A DNA stretch of 64,000 nt. Source: an uncultured Prevotellaceae bacterium. GTDB lineage: Bacteria > Bacteroidota > Bacteroidia > Bacteroidales > Bacteroidaceae. Below the pieces are notes generated by a model. It had not been told where the DNA came from and searched no databases. It saw only the letters and a program-made list of their open reading frames with translations. The DNA lies in assembly GCA_946405805.1 (NCBI GenBank), contig CAMJIL010000005.1:1-64000 (forward strand). The letters run 5' to 3'. The stretch's first letter is position 1; every line of letters begins with the position of its first letter. Below are positions 863-50,905 of this stretch, piece by piece. Position numbers and translations under genes: made by a program.

Positions 863-3800
863 ATGAAGACAGGTCTTTCGTTCCTTTTTGGTGCTTTTAT
901 TTCCTGCGTTGCCGTTTGTGCAGTGTCGGCGCAGGAGGTGCGCACGCTGCATTACCATCCCGATGGACGCGACATCGTGTGCCATGACGGAGAGACGCGC
1001 TATACCCGTGCGCTCTACGGCGGCTATACGGATTTCCGCCTGGAGACGAGCGACCGCCCCGTCTTTGCCACCTACCGCAAACGCAGCCACCGCAACATCC
1101 GTTTTTCGCTGACCACAGGCGGAAAGACCACTCCGCTGGAACAGACAACTCATTGCGAGGCACGCTATAATGCCGGCAAACGCGTGTATATCCTGACGGA
1201 CGACAGCTGGAAGAAAGGGCGGCTCACTATTACGGCCCTTGCGCAGCCCGACAGCGAGTCGGCCATCTGGCAGTTTGAGGCACAGGGCCTGCCCGAGGAT
1301 GCCCAGATAGGGTGTGTGGTCTGTGATGTGTTGCGACCAAAATTCCAACGTGCCGGCGACATGAATTCCGACCCCGCAGATTCTTTCGACCCGTCGCCTG
1401 CCGAGACCAACAAGCTGACGGCACAATGGGCCGTAGGAAAGAAAAAGACGTTTGCCGTACTGGACTGCGATTCCGAAGGCAAGTATTCGCTCTCAATACC
1501 CTCAGCCTCTGATGGCCAGCGCTTGTTTGAAAAAGTGTGGAAGCACCACGAATGGCTTGCAAACAGCATTGTCTTCAACACGCCCGACCCGTACATCAAC
1601 ACCCTCGGCGGTGCCCTGATGGCTGCCAGCGACGGCGCGTGGGACGGCGAGACATGGCTGCACGGCGCTGTGGTATGGCGTATGCAGCTGAACGGCTGGC
1701 GAGCAGGATACCTTGGCGATGTACTCGGAATGCCCGAACGTGCAAAGAGCCATTTCTCCGCCTATGCCAACAGCCAGGTGACCGACGTGGAACCGACCAT
1801 TGCCCATCCTTCGCCCGACCCCGAGAAAGGCCTCTCGCGGGCACGAAAAGAGTGGGGCACGCAGATGTATTCCAACGGCTATATCTGCCGCTATCCTAAC
1901 CGCACGGATGTCATGCACCACTACGACATGAACCTCAACTTCATCGACGAACTCCTGTGGCATTTTGAGTATGACGCCGACACCGCCTTCATGCGAAAAA
2001 TGTGGCCCGTGCTCACACGCCATCTGGCATGGGAGAAGCGTAACTTCGACCCCGACGATGACGGACTGTATGATGCCTATTGCTGCATCTGGGCGAGTGA
2101 TGCCCTGTATTACAATGGTGGTGCCGTGACCCATTCGTCAGCCTATAACTATCGCGGCTTTTCCCTTGCGGCACGCATAGCGGAAATCCTCGGCGAAGAC
2201 CCCACGTATTTCAGGCAGGAAGCCGCCAAGACCTTGAAGGCCATGAACCGGCGCCTGTGGCTGAAAGACCGCGGCCATTGGGCAGAATACCAGGACCTGA
2301 TGGGGCTGAAACGCACCCACGACCATGCCGCCCTGTGGAGCATCTACACCCCAATCGACTGCGGCGCCTGCACACCGGAACAAGCCTTCCAGGCAACACA
2401 GTACGTCGATTCCTGCATCCCCCACATTCCGGTAAACTATCACCTGTCACCTGTCACCTGTCAACTATCAACTATCAACTGTCACCCCGACTCCCGCCCT
2501 TTAAGGGAGGGCTGGGGAGGGTCTTCCCTCAGCACTTCCGACTGGCTGCCCTACGACTGGAGCATCAACAACGTGGCAGCAGAGGAGGTGATGCACATGG
2601 CACTGGCATACTTTCAGGCTGGACGCAACGACGAGGGGTTCCGACTCATCAAGGCAAACATCATGGATCAGGCCTATCTTGGCGGCAGCCCGGGCAACTT
2701 CGGGCAGATAAGCTATTACGACAAGGCCCGTGGGGAACTATACCGTGACTTCTCAGATAACTGCGGCATCTCGGCCCGCACCTTCATACAAGGTCTTTAC
2801 GGCATCATTCCCAATGCCCTGCAGGGACGCTGCTACATCCGCCCGGGATTTCCTGACGAATGGAATGAAGCCAGCATCGAGACTCCTTATTTCAAGTATT
2901 CCTTCCGTCGTGAGGGGGATAAGGATGTTTATGACGTGGAGCAGAATTTTGCGCAACCCTTGCAGATAGTATTGCGCCGGAATACCGGTGACGGCGGATA
3001 TGTCGAAACCCTTGGCAGCAGCGAGAAACACCAGACCTTTGTCGTGCCTCGCGTAAAGCAAAAGCCAGCCCCCAAACCGCTGATTACGGCCACTCATGCT
3101 GACGACCTCGACTGGGGAAACCGCTTCGACGATGTGCAGACCGACCGCCTCGAGACTGTCAATATGGATGCACAGTGGAACAGCAGCGTCAGCGACATTT
3201 TTACGAATTCATACCTCACGCCACGTCCGCCATATACCACCCTCCAGATACCTGTCCACGGCATCGGCGAGTGGTGCCATCCGGAGGCGATGGCTGATAT
3301 CGACGACAGCATGTTGCGCCAGAAGGCTGGTGCACAAGGAGTGCTCATGACCGACACCCTCGGCATCCCGTTCCGATATGCTGCGAAGGGACATAACATC
3401 GCCTACACCTCGCTGTGGGACAACTATCCCGATGCCGTCACCATGCCATTGTCAGGCAAGGCCTCTCACGCCTACCTCCTGATGGCCGGCTCTACCAATC
3501 ACATGCAGAGCCACATCGACAACGGCCTCGTCATAGTACGCTATACCGACAACACCGCTGACACCCTGCACTTGCATAATCCCCATAACTGGTGCCCCAT
3601 AGAGCAGGACTATTACGAAGACGGCCTGGCCTTCCATGCAGCACAGCCGCGTCCTTACCGCATCGACTTCGCCACAGCCCGCGTCACACGCCAGCTGATG
3701 CCGATGGGTGAACACTACGGCCGCCCCGCCAAAGGTGGTGTGGCAGGAAGCTATAACGACCGCTCGTTAGAGAAAGGCGCCGGCATCATCCTCGATATGC

Positions 3801-3898
3801 CTCTTGATGGTGAGAAGACACTGAAAAACCTCACCGTCCGCACCCTCTCAAACGACGTCGTGATAGGTCTGATGGCGGTCACGTTGCAGCGAAAATAA
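863..3898 (+). CDS. Secreted glycoside-hydrolase-like protein (DUF4450-like, six-hairpin-type)
   Basis: 1029-aa ORF; start at ATG 863 gives a signal peptide MKTGLSFLFGAFISCVAVCAVSAQE; contains an in-frame repeat insertion around 2433-2530. Confidence 0.65.
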   Translation: MKTGLSFLFGAFISCVAVCAVSAQEVRTLHYHPDGRDIVCHDGETRYTRALYGGYTDFRLETSDRPVFATYRKRSHRNIRFSLTTGGKTTPLEQTTHCEARYNAGKRVYILTDDSWKKGRLTITALAQPDSESAIWQFEAQGLPEDAQIGCVVCDVLRPKFQRAGDMNSDPADSFDPSPAETNKLTAQWAVGKKKTFAVLDCDSEGKYSLSIPSASDGQRLFEKVWKHHEWLANSIVFNTPDPYINTLGGALMAASDGAWDGETWLHGAVVWRMQLNGWRAGYLGDVLGMPERAKSHFSAYANSQVTDVEPTIAHPSPDPEKGLSRARKEWGTQMYSNGYICRYPNRTDVMHHYDMNLNFIDELLWHFEYDADTAFMRKMWPVLTRHLAWEKRNFDPDDDGLYDAYCCIWASDALYYNGGAVTHSSAYNYRGFSLAARIAEILGEDPTYFRQEAAKTLKAMNRRLWLKDRGHWAEYQDLMGLKRTHDHAALWSIYTPIDCGACTPEQAFQATQYVDSCIPHIPVNYHLSPVTCQLSTINCHPDSRPLREGWGGSSLSTSDWLPYDWSINNVAAEEVMHMALAYFQAGRNDEGFRLIKANIMDQAYLGGSPGNFGQISYYDKARGELYRDFSDNCGISARTFIQGLYGIIPNALQGRCYIRPGFPDEWNEASIETPYFKYSFRREGDKDVYDVEQNFAQPLQIVLRRNTGDGGYVETLGSSEKHQTFVVPRVKQKPAPKPLITATHADDLDWGNRFDDVQTDRLETVNMDAQWNSSVSDIFTNSYLTPRPPYTTLQIPVHGIGEWCHPEAMADIDDSMLRQKAGAQGVLMTDTLGIPFRYAAKGHNIAYTSLWDNYPDAVTMPLSGKASHAYLLMAGSTNHMQSHIDNGLVIVRYTDNTADTLHLHNPHNWCPIEQDYYEDGLAFHAAQPRPYRIDFATARVTRQLMPMGEHYGRPAKGGVAGSYNDRSLEKGAGIILDMPLDGEKTLKNLTVRTLSNDVVIGLMAVTLQRK
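2437..2483. repeat. Heptanucleotide repeat in frame inside a CDS
   Basis: cacctgt cacctgt cacctgt caactat caactat caactgt, translated as YHLSPVTCQLSTINC. Confidence 0.85.
2484..2525. repeat. GC-rich REP-like palindrome inside a CDS
   Basis: cccgactcccgccctttaagggagggctggggaggg; similar elements at 16010 and 24993. Confidence 0.6.
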
Positions 3899-5309: not shown

Positions 5310-5317
5310 TACCTTTG
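5310..5317 (+). promoter_or_regulatory. -7 element TACCTTTG upstream of the CotH gene
   Basis: gcgTACCTTTGcag. Confidence 0.5.
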
Positions 5318-19973: not shown

Positions 19974-21830
19974 GTGTATAAATATCTCTCACACATCCAA
20001 TTTCCTGCTGACCTACGCGCTTTGCCCGTCGAGGCACTCCCAGAGGTCTGCGCGGAACTGCGTGATGACATAGTGAAGGAACTCTCCGTGAATCCAGGAC
20101 ATCTGGCTTCATCATTGGGAACAATAGAACTGACTGTTGCTCTGCATTATGTCTATGATACCCCTGAAGACAGAATAGTCTGGGACGTGGGGCATCAGGC
20201 TTATGGACATAAGATTCTTACTGGCAGACGCGACGTCTTCAATACCAATCGTAAGTTTGGTGGTCTGCACCCCTTCCCGACACCTGCTGAGAGCGAATAT
20301 GACACCTTCGTCTGCGGACATGCTTCCAACAGCATCTCTGCGGCCTTGGGAATGGCTGTCGCTGATGCTAAGATGGGAAACCATCGCAATGTGGTCGCTG
20401 TGATAGGCGACGGAAGCCTCAGTGGTGGACTGGCGTTTGAAGGACTCAATAACGTGTCACAATCGCCAAACAACCTGCTCATCATTCTCAACGACAATAA
20501 TATGTCGATTGATCGCAGCGTGGGTGGCATGAAGCAATATCTCCTATCGCTGAATACCAACGAGTCGTATAACCGTTGGCGCGACAGGGTAGGGCGATGG
20601 CTCATGGGAAAAGGCTATCTGGATGATTCGAGAAGAAAGACGGTCATACGCCTCTCTAATGCCTTCAAGTCTGCTATCTCACAGCAGCAGAATATCTTCG
20701 AGGGCATGAACATACGCTATTTCGGACCTGTTGACGGACATAATATCAAAGAACTGGTACGTGTCATTCGCCAGCTGAAGGATATGCGTGGCCCGAAACT
20801 GCTTCATATTCACACTGTTAAGGGAAAAGGCTATGAGCCGGCTGAAAAGGCGGCTACGATATGGCATGCCCCTGGCCGCTTTAATCCTGAGACGGGCGAA
20901 CGCCTCGATAAGGATAAGAGGGCGAAGTACCAGAATGTCTTTGGCGAGACTCTCGTGGAACTGGCGAAGGCTAATGACAAGATAGTGGGCATCACGCCTG
21001 CTATGCCTACTGGCTGCTCTATGAACAAACTCATGGAGGCAATGCCTGACAGGGCCTTTGACGTGGGTATTGCTGAGGGACATGCTGCCACCTTCGCTGG
21101 GGGATTGGCAAAAGAGGGCATGGTTCCTTTCTGTAATATCTACAGTGCCTTTGCACAGCGTGCCTATGACAACATAATACACGATGTGGCAATAGGAAAC
21201 CTTCATGTGGTGTTCTGCTTCGACAGGGCTGGCATCGTGGGCGAGGATGGTGCTACACATCATGGAGCCTTCGATATGGCTGCCCTGAAACCTGTTCCTA
21301 ACCTCACTATCTGTGCTCCGCTGAATGAGCATGAGCTGCGAAAGATGATGTTTACTGCCCAGCTGCCTGACCAAGGGCCGTGGGTGATACGCTATCCGCG
21401 TGGACGTGGCGTGATGGACGATTGGAGGTGTCCTCTGGAGGCAATAGAGGTCGGAAAGGGTCGTAAGTTGAAGGATGGCAAGGGAACAGCAGTGTTGTCG
21501 ATAGGTCACATTGGAAACAATGTTGCTGAGGCTGTGAAGGGTACTGATGTGGCACACTACGATATGCGATTCCTTAAGCCTATAGATACTGCCCTGCTCG
21601 ACGAGGTGGGAAGCACCTATGACAGAGTCATCACTGTAGAAGACGGAGTACGCGACGGAGGCCTCGGCTCTGCCGTGCTGGAGTATTTCGCTGACAAGGG
21701 ATACACAGCAAAAGTAACCCGCATCGGAATGCCAACAGACACCTTCGTAGAACACGGCACCATAGCAGAACTCCAAAAACTCTACAACATGGACGCGGAA
21801 GGAATTAAGAAGACAATACATAATTCATAA
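19974..21830 (+). CDS. dxs: 1-deoxy-D-xylulose-5-phosphate synthase
   Basis: GTG start; [51 protein letters not shown]. Confidence 0.95.
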
Positions 21831-21884
21831 TTCAAAATTCATAATTCATAATTCAAAATTCATAATTCAAAATTCAAAATTGAC
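21820..21884. repeat. Heptanucleotide repeat spanning the dxs stop codon
   Basis: cataattcataattcaaaattcataattcataattcaaaattcataattcaaaattcaaaattga. Confidence 0.85.
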
Positions 21885-26076: not shown

Positions 26077-26205
26077 ATGTTGCAAGGCTTGTACTGCCTG
26101 CTGGCAAACAAGTTTTCCGACAGTCAGCCCAACCCTCACAACAGGCCTAAGGCCTACGAACTGCTAAAGGCAAAGAACCCCGGCCTGAGCTCAACGCCGG
26201 CCTAA
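26077..26205 (+). CDS. Possible small ORF (42 aa) ending inside the first unit of the 49-bp array
   Basis: MLQGLYCLLANKFSDSQPNPHNRPKAYELLKAKNPGLSSTPA*; frame is open further upstream without ATG. Confidence 0.3.
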   Translation: MLQGLYCLLANKFSDSQPNPHNRPKAYELLKAKNPGLSSTPA

Positions 26206-26438
26206 AAAACCAAATTTTGTTATACTGAGTCAAGATGGCTCAACGCCGGCCTAAAAAACCAAATTTTGTTATACTGAGTCAAGAAGGCTCAACGCCGGCC
26301 TAAAAGACCAAATTTTGTGTTAGACTGGATCAAGAAGGCTCAACGCAGGCCTGAAAAACCAAATTTTGTTATACTGAGTCAAGATGGTTCAACGCCGGCC
26401 TAAAAAACCAAATTTTGTGTTAGACTGACTCAAAAACC
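26189..26438. repeat. Tandem direct-repeat array, about 5 copies of a 49-51 bp unit
   Basis: Unit gctcaacgccggcctaaaaaaccaaattttgttatactgagtcaagatg starting at 26189, 26238, 26287, 26338, 26387. Confidence 0.92.
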
Positions 26439-30616: not shown

Positions 30617-30655
30617 ATAGAATGCTTCAAAAATTATGAGGCATTCTATTTTTTC
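30617..30655. terminator. Bidirectional terminator between tRNA-Ser and the NRPS operon
   Basis: atagaatgc ... gcattctat with T-rich tails on both strands. Confidence 0.75.
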
Positions 30656-33600
30656 TATTCTGTTCTTTCGTTGTTTGATTTAGACCAGAAAGTGAAGCTG
30701 TCAATGATTCCTTTTATGAATTTCAAGTTTTCCGGATTGGTTATTGCCTGCATGTGTGTATAGTCAACGAAGGTAATAGGCATATCGGGTTGTGATTTTT
30801 TCCAGTTGGCTATATTGTGAGGGAACATGGCAATACCTTGTTCACGGGTCTGACCTGGTGAATCATCGAATTTGCTGCACAAAATCAGATGTACCGGACC
30901 AGAATAATAACGCTGGACGCAAGAGCCGGATACTGCGTGCAGGATTTGACTTCTGATTTTTACTAACTCTTCGGAAACGCCAGGCTCTACGACGACGGTG
31001 CCTATCTCTTCACCATATTCTGAACGGCACGCGTAACCATCAATGTTGATGACAGGAATAGTGCCAATGCCTTGCTCCTGGAGTTCCACAGCCAGACGAA
31101 GCGCCATATCGCCACCGAGACAAAATCCAGTTGCCAGTATAGGCATGGTTCGGTCTTTGAGAATAGGACGAAGTATCCGTACATATTCTGCTATCAGTGC
31201 ATCCACATTTTTGGGGAAGTCGGGACGCAGTGAACATAATTCGCTTACTGACTCTATCACAAGGATGGTATATGTGTCTTTGAGCGTATGATAGAAGTCC
31301 ATGTATATCGTTTCGAAATAAGGTGCGCCAGCACAAATGATGAGCAGGGGTTTGTTAGGATTGTCTGGGGTATAGAAATATACAACCCTGTTGTCAATCT
31401 GCTCCTGTGTCAGCGGTTCCTTATTGGTCTCCATAAAGGATGCCAGATTGTGGATGGTCTTGCAATGATAGACATCTGAGGCGTGTAGCTGATAGCCACG
31501 TGTCTGCATCTGACTGACATATTCAAGGACTTGCAGCGAACTCATTCCAATGTCTTCCATCAGATTGGCATTGACATCGATGGTACTGGCTTCGATGCCC
31601 AGAATAGTGGAGATGGCATGGCGACAGCGGCATTCTACCTCCGGCAGTTCTTCGTTGTCTGCTTTTTCTGTAACACACAATTGCGGCTCGGGCAGGCGCT
31701 TACGGTCTATCTTTCCGTTGTGGGTGAGAGGGAATGATTTTGAGAATGTCCAATAGGCAGGTGTCATATAGGCAGGCAGTTTGTCGGCCAGCCATGTACG
31801 AAGACTGGTACCATCCAACTGACTATCGGTTGTTTCTACATGAGCCACCAACTGTTTGGCATCGCCTATCTGACGAATCTCAGCAATACACTGTCGCACA
31901 TCGGGGTGGGAGAGTAGTGTACTCTCGATATCAGCCAGTTCAATACGATATCCGCGCAGCTTTATTTGAAAATCCTTACGTCCCATGAAGTATAGCAGGC
32001 CATCAGCTTTTCTGCATACCAAATCGCCCGTAGCATAGAGGCGTGTATTGATGCCTTGCTCCTTATCAGACTGGCTGACGAATGGGTTATTGATAAAGCT
32101 CTTGCTGTTGAGCTCCGGACGGTTGTGATAGCCTGTGGCCAGTTGCAGACCGCCAAGATACAACTCACCTGTGACACCGTCGGGCAAAAGGTTGTGATCA
32201 TCATCAAGCACATAACATGTTACACCAGGCAATGGTTTGCCAATACAATTAGATGCCGACACCTTACTGCCAGCATAGGTGTGGCTGGTGCTGCATACAG
32301 TACTCTCCGTAGGTCCGTAGCCATTGATGAAGGTAATATTGCTATAACGGTTGATAAGTTCCTGGCTGGGTGACTCACCACCTACGAGGACCTTCTTCAG
32401 CGATGTCGTCGGGTCTTTATGGCAGGAATGTAGGAATGCTGGTGGAATGCAGGCCCACGTAATCTTCTCGTCCTCCATAAACTGGAACAGCTGTTCTGCA
32501 TCTTTTTTCATTGCTTCTGGTGCCGTTACCAGTGTGGCACCGCTCAGCAAGGTGCAGAAGATATCAATGACGGAAGCATCGAAGAGATATGTTGAGAACT
32601 GGATGACGCGATCGTCTGCAGAAGGACGATAGATATTCGGAGAACCTATCGTTACCATTGAAACAACGCTACTATGAGGTACGATAACACCCTTCGGCTT
32701 TCCTGTGGTGCCTGACGTGTAAATCATGTAGGCAGGGGAGGACAATTGACAATTGACAGTTGACAATTGACAGGTGGAATGTCTAAGGTCAAAGGTCAAA
32801 GGTCTAAGGCTTTCGTTATCGTTATCGTTATCGTTTTCGTTATACAGATATATACGAACATCTGGTACGAGTCCCTCAACATCTTTCAGCAGATTTCGTG
32901 TTGTCACGAGGCGTTGCATACCGCTGTCAATGATTATATCCTTCAGGCGCTCCTGAGGGTATGTGTCATTAAGGGGCACATAGAAACAGCCGGCTTTTAT
33001 GATACCCATTATTGTAGCCAGGGCCTGTGACGAACGGCCGGAATATATGCCTACGGCACCCTGAGGGAGTCCGTCGGACAACAGAACAGAGGCAACATTA
33101 TCCGAAATCTTGTCGAGTTGCTCATAAGTATAGCTGTGACTCTCATCCTTGAGGGCCACATGGTCGGGATAGAGCTCCACCTGTTTTCGGAATACGTCAA
33201 CTATAGTTTCTGTTGGTAATGAGAGCGGAGAAACAGTACTCTGTTCCACCATATGCTGATAAGCAGCCTTATCTAACATGGACAGCTTACGAGCAGGTAT
33301 ATTCTCAGCCTCAACAATCTGCTGAATAAGTGCAAGATAGCAACGGCTCAGCAGTTCAATCTGCTCTGTCTCTGCCATTGCGCTGCGATAGAGCCAGCGG
33401 CACTGCAACTTTTTCTCGTCGGTATCGACAGTCAGCATCAGGGGTGCCAACTGATAAGGCAGATCAATTCCCATACGTGTCTCGTAGCGCATTTCCTCAA
33501 GAGTGAAATTCACTGGAGGCAGTTTTACCATCGCATACGAATGAGCTGTCGCTTCACGGATATCGTCAATGGTGTGTTTGCAGAGTTGGTCGAAAGTCAT

Positions 33601-36243
33601 GTCGAGCAAAGACTCTTCGAACTTCATCGGGTATGGATGAACGAAATAGCCGAGCATATTGAGACTTTCGGAAGAGGTCCTGCCGGACGTAGGATAGCCA
33701 AGCGTGAACTTCTGCTGACGCGAAACACGATACAGCACTAGCATCAATGCTGATGACAGGAAGGAGAAGAGAGTAATCTGATGCTGGGAACAATACTTGT
33801 AAATTGCCTCTGACAGGGAGTCATCCACCTGCTTCAAGACACATCCGGTAGTATAGTCATTGTTGTCGCTGTCTTCAATAATTCCAGGCAGTTTCAGTTC
33901 TGGAACATCTTCCAGATAGGCATCCCAATACTTCGTGCTGTCAGCACCTAATGGCCCCTGCTCCTTATTATACGTATCATATACATAATTGGCAAAGTTG
34001 CCTGCAATATCCAAACCCTTCTGTGCATAAAGGACATAGAGTTGCAGCCTCACCTCGTCAAGCGACCAACCATCGGAAATGAGGTGATGCATATAGACGG
34101 CACACACCCATTTGCCATTAGGGAAATGATATAGTTCTACGAAGTAAAGTGGTCCCTTCTCCAAGTCGTACGGACGAGAGAGACGTTCCGTTACCAAAGC
34201 CTTAAGTTCCTCGTCGTCAGCAACGGAGAATTCAGGGATGTCTTCCTGTACCTTAATGTCATTCACCTTCATAAAAGGTTTTCCGAAAGCATCAGTATGA
34301 AAAGTCATACGGAAGGCATCATGGGTCTGTAGCAACCTGTTCCATGCATTGAGCAAAGTGTCTTTCTTAAATGACTTCCCGAATGGTATCAGTTCCACCA
34401 GATTATATGCCAGTGAGGCCTGCTGATTCAGCTTACAGTGAACATAGACGTTGGAGAGGTGGGAAGGGAGTTGGCAGTTGACAATTGATAATTGACAATT
34501 GACAATTGATAAGTTATCGTTTTCGTTATCGTTTTCATTGATGGCTGAAGCCAGTTGGCTCAATGTCAGATTATGATATATATCATTAACCGTCAGTTGG
34601 GTGTTAAATTGCTTATTGATGCGTTGCATCAGGTAGATGATAGAAATGGAATCACCACCCAGTTCGATAAAGTTGCTGTCTGACCTGATGCTTTCCATAT
34701 TGCCCAGCAAGTCATGCCAGATGGCAGCAATCTGTTCCTCTGTCTCGCCAGAAACCTCGTCTGTCTGCTGTTCTGAAGGCAGCATGTCAGCGAGGGCTTT
34801 GAAATCTATTTTCCCGTTAATATTCTTTGGTATATCAGACACCTCTATTATACGAGTAGGTATCATGTAAGACGGCAGTACTCCCTTGAGCTCTTGTTTT
34901 ATCTGTTCTATATCGAGAGGAGTGATATCGGCTTTTACAAAGGCACGCAGATATCTCTGTTCACCCTGCGTAGCCACCTCTATAGCAGCTGCTTCTACCT
35001 GGGAGCATTGCTCAATAGCAGTTTTTATCTCGCCCAATTCTATGCGAAAACCATGAAGCTTTACCTGATTGTCTTTGCGTCCGCAGCAGATGAAATGCCC
35101 GTTAGGCAACTGATAAGCTATGTCACCGCTGGCATACAGTATGGGGTCAGAAGCACCTTCTTCTGCAAAAGGATTAGCAATAAACTTCTGCTTATTCAAT
35201 TCTTCCTTGTTAAGATAACCATCTGTCACCTGAATACCTCCAATAAACAATTCGCCTTTCTCACCTTGCGGCACCTGACGATATTGTTCATCCAAAATAT
35301 AACACGTTGTACCTTCCAGAGGCAGACCGATATCATTGGCAGAATCCTCTTTTCCCAATATGTTGGCAGTAATAAAGACGGTTGCCTCAGTCGGTCCGTA
35401 TGCATTGACGATAGTGCTTGTATTCTGCCATTTTCTTACTAAGGGTTCTGGGCAAGGCTCTCCTCCAAATACCAGATATTTCAAATCCGGGAGAGGGCGA
35501 TAGGGAATCAAGGAAAGATATGTAGGAGTTGTGCTAAACGTTGTAACATGTTGTTCTTCCAATATCTCTGCTATACGTTCAGGATTTGCCTTTTCTTCTT
35601 CGCTGAAGAAATAGACTGCTGTTCCAGTCATCAGCGGACAGAATATTTCCCAAACGGAATAATCAAACGCAATGCTGGCAATACAGGTCTCCAACGTGTT
35701 CTCTACGTGAGAATAGAGGGCTTTATGGCGGACTTCTACCAGATTACGCAGTCCGGCATGAGTAATTGGTATGCCTTTGGGTTTGCCCGTTGTGCCAGAG
35801 GTGTAGATGACGTAGCCAAGGGAGGATGGTTGGCAGGTGACAGTTGATAGTTGACAGGTGACAGTTGAAATGTTGGAATCAATAGTAAGCCACTGGACCT
35901 GTGGATATTCTGAGACAGGGGCATCACAATCTGTGAGTATCAGGTTCAGCTTACAATCATCTATGATATACCCTATACGCTCTGAAGAGTATTTAGGGTC
36001 CATTGGGACGTAAGCAAATCCTGCCTTCCAGATGCCTATCATCATCGGAATAGTATATTGGGTACGCGATGAATATATACCGACAAAAGGGCTTTTCGCT
36101 GGAGTATGTCCACTTTGCAGAATCAACTGTGCTATACAATCAGAGATTCTGTCCAACTCACTATATGAAAAAGACAGACTTCCGAATTTAAGAGCCGTTT
36201 TCTCTGAATTCTGTTTTACGATATTCTGAAAAATACTTATCAT
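30655..36243 (-). CDS. Dimodular nonribosomal peptide synthetase, apparent order A-T-C-A-T-TE
   Basis: YTSGTTGKPKG twice; carrier motifs ELGGDSISI and EDIGMSSLQVL; condensation motif MHHLISDGWS; thioesterase ATGFCLGGDMAL. Confidence 0.93.
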   Translation of the reverse strand: MISIFQNIVKQNSEKTALKFGSLSFSYSELDRISDCIAQLILQSGHTPAKSPFVGIYSSRTQYTIPMMIGIWKAGFAYVPMDPKYSSERIGYIIDDCKLNLILTDCDAPVSEYPQVQWLTIDSNISTVTCQLSTVTCQPSSLGYVIYTSGTTGKPKGIPITHAGLRNLVEVRHKALYSHVENTLETCIASIAFDYSVWEIFCPLMTGTAVYFFSEEEKANPERIAEILEEQHVTTFSTTPTYLSLIPYRPLPDLKYLVFGGEPCPEPLVRKWQNTSTIVNAYGPTEATVFITANILGKEDSANDIGLPLEGTTCYILDEQYRQVPQGEKGELFIGGIQVTDGYLNKEELNKQKFIANPFAEEGASDPILYASGDIAYQLPNGHFICCGRKDNQVKLHGFRIELGEIKTAIEQCSQVEAAAIEVATQGEQRYLRAFVKADITPLDIEQIKQELKGVLPSYMIPTRIIEVSDIPKNINGKIDFKALADMLPSEQQTDEVSGETEEQIAAIWHDLLGNMESIRSDSNFIELGGDSISIIYLMQRINKQFNTQLTVNDIYHNLTLSQLASAINENDNENDNLSIVNCQLSIVNCQLPSHLSNVYVHCKLNQQASLAYNLVELIPFGKSFKKDTLLNAWNRLLQTHDAFRMTFHTDAFGKPFMKVNDIKVQEDIPEFSVADDEELKALVTERLSRPYDLEKGPLYFVELYHFPNGKWVCAVYMHHLISDGWSLDEVRLQLYVLYAQKGLDIAGNFANYVYDTYNKEQGPLGADSTKYWDAYLEDVPELKLPGIIEDSDNNDYTTGCVLKQVDDSLSEAIYKYCSQHQITLFSFLSSALMLVLYRVSRQQKFTLGYPTSGRTSSESLNMLGYFVHPYPMKFEESLLDMTFDQLCKHTIDDIREATAHSYAMVKLPPVNFTLEEMRYETRMGIDLPYQLAPLMLTVDTDEKKLQCRWLYRSAMAETEQIELLSRCYLALIQQIVEAENIPARKLSMLDKAAYQHMVEQSTVSPLSLPTETIVDVFRKQVELYPDHVALKDESHSYTYEQLDKISDNVASVLLSDGLPQGAVGIYSGRSSQALATIMGIIKAGCFYVPLNDTYPQERLKDIIIDSGMQRLVTTRNLLKDVEGLVPDVRIYLYNENDNDNDNESLRPLTFDLRHSTCQLSTVNCQLSSPAYMIYTSGTTGKPKGVIVPHSSVVSMVTIGSPNIYRPSADDRVIQFSTYLFDASVIDIFCTLLSGATLVTAPEAMKKDAEQLFQFMEDEKITWACIPPAFLHSCHKDPTTSLKKVLVGGESPSQELINRYSNITFINGYGPTESTVCSTSHTYAGSKVSASNCIGKPLPGVTCYVLDDDHNLLPDGVTGELYLGGLQLATGYHNRPELNSKSFINNPFVSQSDKEQGINTRLYATGDLVCRKADGLLYFMGRKDFQIKLRGYRIELADIESTLLSHPDVRQCIAEIRQIGDAKQLVAHVETTDSQLDGTSLRTWLADKLPAYMTPAYWTFSKSFPLTHNGKIDRKRLPEPQLCVTEKADNEELPEVECRCRHAISTILGIEASTIDVNANLMEDIGMSSLQVLEYVSQMQTRGYQLHASDVYHCKTIHNLASFMETNKEPLTQEQIDNRVVYFYTPDNPNKPLLIICAGAPYFETIYMDFYHTLKDTYTILVIESVSELCSLRPDFPKNVDALIAEYVRILRPILKDRTMPILATGFCLGGDMALRLAVELQEQGIGTIPVINIDGYACRSEYGEEIGTVVVEPGVSEELVKIRSQILHAVSGSCVQRYYSGPVHLILCSKFDDSPGQTREQGIAMFPHNIANWKKSQPDMPITFVDYTHMQAITNPENLKFIKGIIDSFTFWSKSNNERTE
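32738..32857. repeat. In-CDS repeats in NRPS A2 just before core motif A3
   Basis: (gacaatt)n, (caaaggt/ctaaggt)n and (cgttat)n; peptide NENDNDNDNESLRPLTFDLRHSTCQLSTVNCQLSS. Confidence 0.85.
34466..34540. repeat. In-CDS repeats in the NRPS T1-C linker
   Basis: (gacaatt/gataatt)n plus (cgttat/cgtttt)n; peptide NENDNENDNLSIVNCQLSIVNCQL. Confidence 0.85.
35832..35873. repeat. In-CDS heptanucleotide repeat in NRPS A1 just before core motif A3
   Basis: caggtga cagttga tagttga caggtga cagttga; peptide STVTCQLSTVTCQ. Confidence 0.85.
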
Positions 36244-46746: not shown

Positions 46747-48849
46747 TTACTCGTTTCCCGACATGATGTTAGAAATGACCACCATATCACCTACATTAAC
46801 CTCACCGTCTTGGTTCACATCAGCAGCATCCTTTGAGACTAACACATCACCGGCCATGAAGTTACTTACCGATACAAGGTCACCTACGTTAACCTCGCCG
46901 TCACCATTAGCATCACCGCGAAGAAAATCTGGCTCGCTGCCGACATATTCCCGCCAATCATTTTCACTTACAGCATAATATGGAAACCAGTATTTAGCTT
47001 TTGCTGCAGCCACCTGAGTGGTTGTCATTACGTTGCCTTCGTTCTCGAAGTATAATACACCCACATGGTTCTCAAAATCGAATGTCGGCAGATCCTCCAC
47101 AAGCTTGTTCATCGCAACACCCTTTAACTGGTTGCAATAGATACTAAGAATTGACAAGTTAGGACATCCCGACACATCAAGCGAGGTAAGCTGGTTATTG
47201 TTGCATGATAGCCAGTACAGCGCTGTTTTATTCGACACATCAAGCGACGTAAGTTGGTTATATTCGCATTCTAACATTTGCAATGCCGTACATTTTGACA
47301 CATCGAGCGAAGTAAGTTGGTTATATTTGCATACTAATGATTTTAGTGCCGTATTATTCGACAAATCAAGCGATGTAAGCAGGTTGCCGAAACAATTCAA
47401 GCTTATCAGCGCTTTATTCTGTGACAAATCAAGCGAAGTAAACATGTTACCATAGCAATACAAACTTTCCAACTTCGTATTTTTCGATACATCGAGCGAA
47501 GTAAGGTTGCCACCTGAAATATCAATAGATCTTAGTGCCGTAAAGAACTCTAAGCCTTGCATATTCTGAATATTATATTCGGGAGGATACAAATTCATAT
47601 TTTTCACACAAGCAATCTCGGCATCAGTAAGAACACCATCCTTGCCATAGAACTGCGACAGCACCCAGTTGCGGAAATTCTCGTCAGGGAAATTTGTTTC
47701 GTTGATGGCTATAATCTCTATTACAGGCTCATCACCGATGACAACGATATTGCCGAAATCGCTCCAAGGTTCCGTAGCTTTGTATGCTTCCAAAGCAGAA
47801 GCAGGCACATAGAGAGTTGCAGGAACATTATTAAAAACATCACTTCCTGTTGAAGGAACAGATGTTGCCTCGCAGGTGATAGATGTCAAACCAATGCAGT
47901 CACGAAAAGCATTGTCTCCTATTGACGTCACGCTGTTGGGGATGGTAACTGATGTCAGATCGGTATGACCAGAGAAAGCACTGCTTCCTATTGATTTCAC
48001 ACCGTTGGGGATTACTGTGTTCCCACAACCCATGATCAGATTGTTGGTTGCTGTTTCTATTATAGCATTACAATTATCACGGGAGTCATATTCTGGATTT
48101 CCGCTTTCTACTGATATTGATGTCAGGCCATAGCAGCCATAGAAAGCATTGCCACCTATTGACGTCACGCTATTGCCAATTGTCACTGATGTAAGACCGG
48201 AGCAATTAGAGAAAGCACAGTATCCAATTGATGTCACACTGTTGGGGATTTCAATGGACGCCAGGCTAGAGCAATTAGAGAAAGTGTAGTTTCCTATTGA
48301 TGTAATGCTGTTGGGAATCGTCACCGATGTAAGGCCGGAACAGTCATTGAAAGCATTTGTTCCTATAAATGTCACGCTGTTGGGGATTGTCACCGATGTC
48401 AGGCTAGAACAGCCAGCGAAAGCATTGTTTCCTATTGACGTCACACTATTGCCAATTGTCACTGATGTAAGGGCTTTGCAGTAATAGAAAGCATCTCTCC
48501 CTATTGATGTCACGCTGTTGGGGATTATCACCGATGTCAGGCTGGAGCAGCCAGGAAAAGCTTCGTTCCCAATCAAAGTAACGCTGTTGGGAATTGTCAC
48601 TGATGTAAGGTTTCTGCAATAAAAGAAAGCCCTATTACCTATTGATGTCACGCTGCAGCTAACATCATTGTAGGTTACGGTTTCGGGAATTGTAACGCTA
48701 CCAGTGTATTTAGTATCACCCGATGTCACTGTCGCTGTTTTGGCAGATGTATCGAAATTGTAATATATGCCATCAATCTGAGCATCATACGCACTTGACG
48801 TCAATGTTGACAGCATCAAAGCAAATAGTAATGATAGTTTTTTAGTCAT
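46747..48849 (-). CDS. BspA-type LRR protein with additional classical LRRs and dockerin type I domain
   Basis: SVTIPNSVTSIGxxAFxxCxxLT repeats; LTSLDVSxNTAL repeats; C-term GDANGDGEVNVGDLVSVSNFMAG...ADVNQDGEVNVGDMVVISNIMSGNE. Confidence 0.9.
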   Translation of the reverse strand: MTKKLSLLFALMLSTLTSSAYDAQIDGIYYNFDTSAKTATVTSGDTKYTGSVTIPETVTYNDVSCSVTSIGNRAFFYCRNLTSVTIPNSVTLIGNEAFPGCSSLTSVIIPNSVTSIGRDAFYYCKALTSVTIGNSVTSIGNNAFAGCSSLTSVTIPNSVTFIGTNAFNDCSGLTSVTIPNSITSIGNYTFSNCSSLASIEIPNSVTSIGYCAFSNCSGLTSVTIGNSVTSIGGNAFYGCYGLTSISVESGNPEYDSRDNCNAIIETATNNLIMGCGNTVIPNGVKSIGSSAFSGHTDLTSVTIPNSVTSIGDNAFRDCIGLTSITCEATSVPSTGSDVFNNVPATLYVPASALEAYKATEPWSDFGNIVVIGDEPVIEIIAINETNFPDENFRNWVLSQFYGKDGVLTDAEIACVKNMNLYPPEYNIQNMQGLEFFTALRSIDISGGNLTSLDVSKNTKLESLYCYGNMFTSLDLSQNKALISLNCFGNLLTSLDLSNNTALKSLVCKYNQLTSLDVSKCTALQMLECEYNQLTSLDVSNKTALYWLSCNNNQLTSLDVSGCPNLSILSIYCNQLKGVAMNKLVEDLPTFDFENHVGVLYFENEGNVMTTTQVAAAKAKYWFPYYAVSENDWREYVGSEPDFLRGDANGDGEVNVGDLVSVSNFMAGDVLVSKDAADVNQDGEVNVGDMVVISNIMSGNE

Positions 48850-49363: not shown

Positions 49364-50905
49364 TTACTCGTTTCCCGACATGATATTTGAGATAACCACC
49401 ATATCACCTACATTAACCTCACCATCTTCGTTGACGTCACCACGGAGGCCGCTTGCACCACCGCTGATGTTAATCTCCAGGGTGGCAATATCGGAATTGA
49501 TATAACCCGCCTTTGTGGCATAGACGGTGACCTTGTAGGTCGTAGGAAGACTAATTTCATCACTATTGCCATCACATGAGGACATGATATGACTTATAAA
49601 CTCAACACCCTCAGTCTCGCATGAGAACTGCAACTTACCATCAACATAGCTGATGGTAGGCATTGCACACTTTGGTGTTTCGGGTATTTCTCCCGACAAA
49701 ATCTTAAAAGTTCCAAATCCACTCCAAGGCGCCCTAGCCTTGTACGTCGTCATAGATGTCTCTGGAACATATAGCGTAGCGTATTCTACGAATGCGTCTC
49801 TGAATACATCAGTACCCGTTGAAGGCACATTCTCTGCATAGCAATAAACATCTGACAGTTCTGAGCAATTCACAAAAGTATAGCTACCTATAGATTTTAC
49901 GCCACTACCAATTATGACGGTTTTTAATTTGTTACAACCGATAAAAACTTGATTTCCTATGGAGGTAACACTATTTGGGATAACAATGGACGTTAAGCTT
50001 GTACAACCAGAGAAAGCGCCACCATAAATATTATCACCACCTATGGATGTAACACTTTGGGGGATGGTGATTGAAGTTAAACTAGAGCAACTTGAAAAGG
50101 CTCCATTACTAATAGAGGAAATACTCTCAGGAATTGTGATTGAGGTGAGAGCACGACAACCGGAGAAAGCACCCTTGCCAATATAACTTACACTATTGGG
50201 AATATTGATTGAAGTAAAACCACAACCAGAGAAAGCTTGGTTCCCAATTGAGTACACTGTGTTTGGGATGGTGACATCTGTCAACCCTGAGCATCCTAAG
50301 AATGCAGCTTCTTCAATACTATTTATATTGTCGGGAATTGTAATAGAAGTCAAACCGGTACAACCGTAGAACACACTATTTCCAATGGATGACCAACTAC
50401 TGGGGATTGTAATGGAAGTCAAGCCAGTGCACTCTCTAAAAGCAGCCTCGCCAATGGATGTCGCGCTTTCGGGGATGGCAATGGAAGTCAAGCCGCCGCA
50501 GCCCATAAAAGCATATCCGTCAATGGATGTCACACCCTCAGGGATGTTTACAGAAGTCATGCCGCTACATCCATAAAAAGCGCCATAGCCGATGGATTTC
50601 ACACTGTTAGGAATAGTGACTGAGGTTATGCCGGAACATCCTCTAAAAGCTCCCCCTAAATACGTGCCACCATTATGAGTAACATTACCGGCAATTGATG
50701 TCACTTTATAATCAACACCCTCAAAACTTACTTTTTCCGGTATAACCACATTACCAGAATAACTACTATTAAAATTTCGAGTAACTTCTGCTACATTTCC
50801 TTTTTTTATAAGGTTGTAACAAATGCCATCAATCTCAACTTCGTCTGCACTTGCCGTCAGGGTTGACAGCATCAAAGTTAATAGTAATGTTATTTTTTTT
50901 GTCAT
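49364..50905 (-). CDS. BspA-type LRR protein with single-EF-hand (half) dockerin tail
   Basis: SITIPxSVTSIGxxAFxGCxxLT repeats; C-term LRGDVNEDGEVNVGDMVVISNIMSGNE. Confidence 0.88.
   Translation of the reverse strand: MTKKITLLLTLMLSTLTASADEVEIDGICYNLIKKGNVAEVTRNFNSSYSGNVVIPEKVSFEGVDYKVTSIAGNVTHNGGTYLGGAFRGCSGITSVTIPNSVKSIGYGAFYGCSGMTSVNIPEGVTSIDGYAFMGCGGLTSIAIPESATSIGEAAFRECTGLTSITIPSSWSSIGNSVFYGCTGLTSITIPDNINSIEEAAFLGCSGLTDVTIPNTVYSIGNQAFSGCGFTSINIPNSVSYIGKGAFSGCRALTSITIPESISSISNGAFSSCSSLTSITIPQSVTSIGGDNIYGGAFSGCTSLTSIVIPNSVTSIGNQVFIGCNKLKTVIIGSGVKSIGSYTFVNCSELSDVYCYAENVPSTGTDVFRDAFVEYATLYVPETSMTTYKARAPWSGFGTFKILSGEIPETPKCAMPTISYVDGKLQFSCETEGVEFISHIMSSCDGNSDEISLPTTYKVTVYATKAGYINSDIATLEINISGGASGLRGDVNEDGEVNVGDMVVISNIMSGNE

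Follow-up and report, generated by a model that had tools for sequence, protein, structure and literature searches.

In-frame repeat DNA of intergenic type in a DUF4450 protein gene of an uncultured Prevotellaceae bacterium

Why does the gene of a secreted protein carry, within its reading frame, a run of heptanucleotide repeats and a GC-rich palindrome? We addressed this question for a gene near the start of a 64,000-nucleotide stretch of genomic DNA (the window). The segment is very probably intergenic-type repeat DNA that is carried in frame by a functional gene, turns over fast, and is tolerated where loops are permissive, with purifying selection preserving the frame. We are confident that the insert is in-frame repeat DNA; our account of the process that writes such arrays is a guess.

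The insert and the corresponding loop in homologs

The locus contains the following features.

718-803, no strand assigned: intergenic heptamer arrays, AATTAGG and then ATTCCTC, directly upstream of the DUF4450 gene
863-3898, plus strand: gene of a 1011-residue secreted DUF4450 / GH-like protein (P0001), containing the insert
2435-2486, plus strand: heptanucleotide array AACTAT(CACCTGT)3(CAACTAT)2CAACTGT, translated as NYHLSPVTCQLSTINC, with kin arrays elsewhere in the genome
2488-2526, plus strand: GC-rich REP-like hairpin element, translated as HPDSRPLREGWGGS, with dispersed copies in both orientations
2435-2533, plus strand: the whole inserted or variable loop, residues 525-557, without repeats in most homologs

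An in-frame heptamer array followed by a GC-rich palindrome had been predicted here, and both are present in an unbroken frame. The array holds 6.7 copies of a 7-mer in 52 bp (TRF score 59, 90% matches). The GC-rich inverted repeat after it is CTCCCGCCCTTTAAGGGAGGGCTGGGGAGGGT (2491-2522), and the two are read together as NYHLSPVTCQLSTINCHPDSRPLREGWGGSSLS, residues 525-557 of the ORF from 863, with no frameshift or stop. The description of the host as a DUF4450-like protein can be refined. P0001 does match Pfam DUF4450 (PF14614; 56.8 bits against a cut-off of 27), but only over residues 78-177, and the insert lies further on. Weak GH116/MGH1-like matches (residues 348-477) also end ahead of the insert, and the protein has an apparent signal peptide. 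The RNA fold of the hairpin (2488-2526) is not clearly better than that of same-composition shuffles (z -1.0), and we regard the hairpin as an element because it has dispersed copies, not because of RNA stability.

We compared the loop (residues ~521-562 of P0001) among 67 aligned homologs from the genus. It is 126 nt long in P0001 and 51-87 nt in most homologs; in the nearest one (L032, 78% identity) it is 75 nt and has no repeat. On either side, DNA homology extends as far as the insert, across which it is interrupted (query 834 to 935). The original prediction expected the ~30-residue segment to be missing from most close homologs, and it is missing from most of these 67. Conservation of the peptide, which would have counted against the prediction, is not seen. 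No solved relative of P0001 was found at E<0.01, and an AlphaFold model from the single sequence (pLDDT 33, pTM 0.25) was left unused; length variation among the homologs suggests that the insert lies in a surface loop. Differences between P0001 and L032 at codon positions 1, 2 and 3 are 0.18, 0.14 and 0.51 upstream of the loop and 0.14, 0.10 and 0.47 downstream of it, and such differences to the nearest homologs indicate constraint on both flanks of the insert.

This constraint bears on whether the insert could be an artefact, that is, an assembly error, a pseudogene or a mis-called gene. The genome is a metagenome-assembled genome (MAG) of 1.93 Mb in 60 contigs and 73% complete, which would leave room for such errors. 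However, the codons are constrained on both sides of the insert, the arrays are shorter than usual reads, and both a sister genome that is 99% complete and the genes for TsaD and MetH (below) show the same pattern. We consider an artefact extremely unlikely.

Several other species independently hold different repeats in the loop that corresponds to that of P0001. L033 and L034 have CTCTAAA-type heptamers, and L041 has five TCAACTG/TCAACAG units. Degenerate heptamers are found in L276 (lag-7 score 16) and L045 (15). L274 was rejected as a heptamer case, its lag-7 score being 13 of 21 and other lags reaching 13 by chance. Hairpins occupy the loop in L278 (CCCGAAGC...GCTTCGGG), L275 (GGGGATTTGTAATCCCC) and L300 (of the CTCCC...GGGAGGGG kind), and the loop of L284 is ~190 nt long with direct repeats of its own. 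In a tree from which the loop was left out, the presence of heptamers changes at least 5 times and that of any repeat at least 9 times, counts that take in the borderline L274. The variety of repeats and the tree indicate that one loop has been given different extragenic repeats many times.

Refilling of the same loop in unrelated lineages might also reflect positive selection for a low-complexity loop rich in Ser, Thr, Asn and Gln that has a role in binding or stability, with repeat DNA as a convenient source. Most homologs do without a repeat loop, however, and its sequence, length and composition are not kept (compare the hairpin-derived RPLREGWGG with QLSTVNC). Furthermore, intergenic DNA has a far higher density of the same repeats. 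Selection for the loop itself is therefore a very unlikely explanation.

Heptamer arrays and hairpins across the genome

The insert has 43 matches in its own genome, some to the array only and many to the hairpin only (query 59-94); at one other locus, the array end and the hairpin occur together. We surveyed arrays in 0.80 Mb of the 1.93 Mb, partly on contigs chosen for known repeat hits, and found 190: 141 of period 7, 36 of period 14 and 13 of period 21. Periods 6 and 8 account for 14 and 5 arrays, respectively, in the same 0.80 Mb. No arrays arose in first-order Markov shuffles, and two other members of the genus (320 kb and 80 kb) had no period-7 array and, in the 320 kb, one period-21 array. 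The units belong to 59 of 1172 possible classes, with strong preferences for AAAGGTT, AACCGTT, AACTGTC, AAACTTT and others.

When genes are placed with a simple caller, 118 arrays fall in intergenic DNA, 37 overlap gene ends and 36 are intragenic. One array in the window (21815-21881, no strand assigned, unit AATTCAT) lies over a stop codon and intergenic spacer. Array density is 16-fold higher in intergenic DNA than in genes (0.88 versus 0.054 per kb), both values being somewhat high since the sample favours contigs with repeat hits. The original prediction that intergenic-type repeat DNA had been accepted as coding sequence is supported. Array and hairpin are both dispersed repeats of this genome.

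The intragenic arrays are beyond chance, as 0.67 Mb of genes contain 35 of period 7 and 20 sets of codon-shuffled genes contain none. Of the 36 intragenic units, 30 lack stops on the coding strand and 3 on the opposite strand, compared with 27% per strand for intergenic units. A stop-codon filter would be expected to produce this bias, which is partly built in because called genes cannot hold stops.

Arrays of TCAACTG are found in 40 of 398 genomes of the genus and in distant phyla, above all in cyanobacteria; they are also present on eight viral contigs (L257-L264). TCAACTG is mirror-symmetric, the unit read backwards being a rotation of itself, and for this reason a reversed-pattern control matched equally often. 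Elsewhere in the window there are an intergenic 49-bp tandem repeat of 4.7 copies (26189-26433), which differs from a plain heptamer array, and 69-bp periodic coding repeats (48118-48655 and 50402-50546) that are leucine-rich and BspA-like by look.

Seven of 18 hairpins lie within 15 bp of an array, against ~10% expected, and a heptamer-hairpin composite is found at two coding loci of the genome, 85% alike over 65 bp. Both observations would fit the view that the inserts are MITE- or REP-like mobile elements, driven by a RAYT or another transposase and with the heptamers as passengers; transposase-driven movement has been proposed for Rickettsia palindromic elements. The sister species G098 has a RAYT-like Y1 transposase (L333:17265-18137) with flanking TTTTCAC and TGATCCC heptamers. 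However, a RAYT-like protein is missing from the array-richest genomes (G290, G009, G204, G154 and the MAG studied here). It is found in 13 of 40 array-positive and 62 of 358 array-negative genomes, only a weak association, and we rejected a RAYT/Y1 transposase as the cause. In addition, the arrays vary in length, lack fixed ends and target duplications, and are made of dozens of different units. From these distributions, a RAYT transposase is not required for the arrays, and we think it unlikely that the inserts are mobile elements.

Coding slots and the replacement of their contents between sister species

The insert in P0001 is one of several. The peptide style encoded by its array was said to recur in a nonribosomal peptide synthetase (NRPS) of the window, and we confirmed this; arrays there are translated as ISTVTCQLSTVTCQ, LSIVNCQLSIVN and CQLSTVNCQLS.

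30655-36243, minus strand: NRPS ORF of 1862 residues with four further in-frame arrays
35825-35870, minus strand: in-frame array at residue ~125
34471-34512, minus strand: in-frame array at residue ~578, between the carrier (503-568) and condensation (600-903) domains
32781-32809, minus strand: in-frame array at residue ~1145, shortly ahead of the A-domain motif YTSGTTGKPKG and missing from LgrA
32741-32772, minus strand: in-frame array at residue ~1158, in the same loop as the array at ~1145

A second NRPS (L068:6748-13608), 2287 residues long and reductase-ended, has five in-frame arrays.

Core enzymes carry such arrays as well. TsaD is an essential enzyme that acts in the t6A modification of tRNA. 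In the genome studied here (G000), TsaD (L088:5240-6349, contig C23) has a heptamer-encoded insert of ~27 residues at a place where ~3 residues are found in solved TsaD chains; those chains contain nothing that corresponds to residues ~107-134 of the query (in L088, counted from base 5315). Elsewhere the same loop is filled by (AGGAGTC)n (L409) or GC-rich hairpins (L386), and its plain form is ~11 residues long. MetH has an in-frame array in the linker between its homocysteine and folate domains. A U32 peptidase (L080:12436-14307, contig C21 of G000) has arrays at residues ~102-141 and a heptamer-hairpin composite near residue 550, and further in-frame arrays are found in an alpha-2-macroglobulin and in TPR proteins. 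Alignment to solved relatives suggests that the array sites in TsaD, MetH and the NRPS lie in loops.

The contents of these slots differ between G000 and its sister species G098, which is represented by the 99%-complete genome and is 93.1% identical to G000 over 303 kb of aligned DNA. The TsaD slot is filled with TCACCTG/TCAACTC in G000 and GTCAAAG in G098, in proteins that are 95% identical. The U32 peptidase slot contains a TCAACTG/GGTTTCA array in G000 and AATTCAT/TTCACTC in G098, and at one coding slot a GC hairpin in G098 stands in place of the heptamer array of G000. In only 4 of 17 comparisons were coding-site arrays at least 80% identical between the species, though their flanks were 88-98% identical, and none of 23 intergenic sites reached that identity (some sites in these comparisons were counted from both sides). 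For sites that lie within a gene in one species, 17 of 18 comparisons placed the site of the other species within an open gene as well, a count that includes some sites from both sides and depends partly on gene calling, since lengths that are multiples of three are partly built into pairs of called genes. At intergenic sites, 12 of 23 length differences were multiples of three, so the contrast with coding sites is modest and rests on small numbers. At one coding site the length difference was not divisible by three, and because both genes are open across it we took this to be an alignment edge. As judged from the aligned genomes, the repeats at a given slot are usually replaced between the two species and the flanks and frame are kept. 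Replaced arrays beside such similar flanks indicate that array turnover outruns point mutation.

Replacement left no clean target duplication at these sites. Mismatches between neighbouring units within arrays have a transition/transversion ratio of 0.77, compared with 1.9 for substitutions between G000 and G098. Unit variants thus look as though they were drawn from a pool and not point-mutated in place, and we rejected ordinary point mutation as their source.

A 7-nt unit shifts the frame, and copy gain or loss could in principle switch a gene on and off, as in neuO, which is reportedly phase-variable and controlled by heptanucleotide repeats. The arrays fit such a contingency switch poorly, however. 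Thirty-seven arrays are read through in one frame, as against a handful of gene pairs possibly frameshifted at an array, and orthologous slots remain in frame despite replacement of the array. Paired in-frame and out-of-frame alleles, the mark of a phase-variable contingency locus, were not found between the species. The units are also imperfect, which slows slippage, and the slots include those in TsaD and MetH, where an OFF state would be lethal or costly. We regard phase variation as highly unlikely.

Possible origin of the arrays and relation to known repeats

We favor tolerated, rapidly rewritten repeat DNA as the explanation for the insert in P0001. Arrays would arise and be rewritten much faster than point mutation, mostly in intergenic DNA, perhaps through slippage or template switching during synthesis, with a pool of heptamers and hairpins as the source of the copies; this step is a guess. 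Slippage accounts for expansion of an array but not for wholesale change of its unit, for which templated or recombinational copying from other arrays could account. Within genes, an insert would survive only if it had no stop on the coding strand, a length divisible by three and a position in a permissive loop or linker. The outcome would be a neutral or nearly neutral loop, polar and flexible, of the QLSTVNC heptapeptide type. It is also conceivable, though rather unlikely, that a dedicated enzyme or repair pathway adds 7-nt units, drawing on a pool of short templates, and rewrites fixed sites, including the coding slots of core enzymes, such that the loops would be an evolving, exchangeable cassette.

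The cyanobacterial short tandemly repeated repetitive (STRR) sequences are also heptamers, and TCAACTG itself is a common unit in Microcoleus, Richelia and others. STRR sequences have been described mostly in spacers and RNA genes. In the literature that we searched, there was no report of coding-slot turnover of this kind for them.

Other systems share some of these properties. Rickettsia palindromic elements (RPEs) are dispersed between genes and in frame within conserved genes (Ogata et al. 2000, as reviewed in PMC2229807). They are palindromes of 105-146 bp in fixed families, and the product of gmk, the one case tested, is reported to be still active with an RPE. As with RPEs, members of one repeat family lie here in intergenic DNA and also, in frame, within conserved genes, and the insert is missing from orthologs of a gene that is otherwise intact. 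In contrast to RPEs, most of the repeats here are arrays of 7-nt units plus GC-rich hairpins of ~35 bp, and the content of slots is replaced between sister species. We do not file the insert as an RPE because it is a 52-bp array of no fixed length with a ~35-bp hairpin and not a 100-150-bp palindrome with defined ends. Like REP elements (PMC3733652), the hairpins are GC-rich palindromes that are short and dispersed; here they often have other repeats as neighbors. With regard to the GTAG/CGTC tags and RAYT dependence of REPs, the hairpin is only a candidate, and the array-richest genomes have no cognate RAYT of the sort that mobilizes REP/BIME elements.

A further likeness is to the tandem arrays of 5-11-nt units known as long simple sequence repeats (LSSRs), which exceed expectation in length or frequency and of which heptamers are the commonest. 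Slippage was proposed for heptamers by Mrazek in 2007, as summarised in PMC4679880. GGGAATC/GGGGATT repeats in Xanthomonas and Nostoc are 7-32% intragenic (PMC4692102), and TAACTGA repeats occur in Beggiatoaceae, with heptanucleotide arrays also in cyanobacteria and five Bacteroidetes (PMC4679880). Like LSSRs, the arrays described here exceed expectation, have a period of seven, are many per genome and mainly intergenic with some in ORFs, are patchy in phylogeny, and vary between close relatives. The described cases mainly involve one or a few units, whereas the 0.8 Mb sampled here has 59 classes, and core enzymes have coding slots that are refilled in frame with different units. Our search, which mostly excluded subscription journals, found no paper on heptamers in Prevotella. 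The kind of repeat is already known; what is new is that many units are combined with the refilling of coding slots in core enzymes and with replacement from one sister species to the other.

If this reading is correct, the reading frames of working bacterial enzymes, even essential ones, can take up ordinary extragenic repeats and exchange them for others, at a rate well above that of point substitution. The inserts would then be a natural, countable record of protein loops that tolerate random insertion, and comparison of sister strains would provide a system to test why bacterial repeats favor a period of seven.
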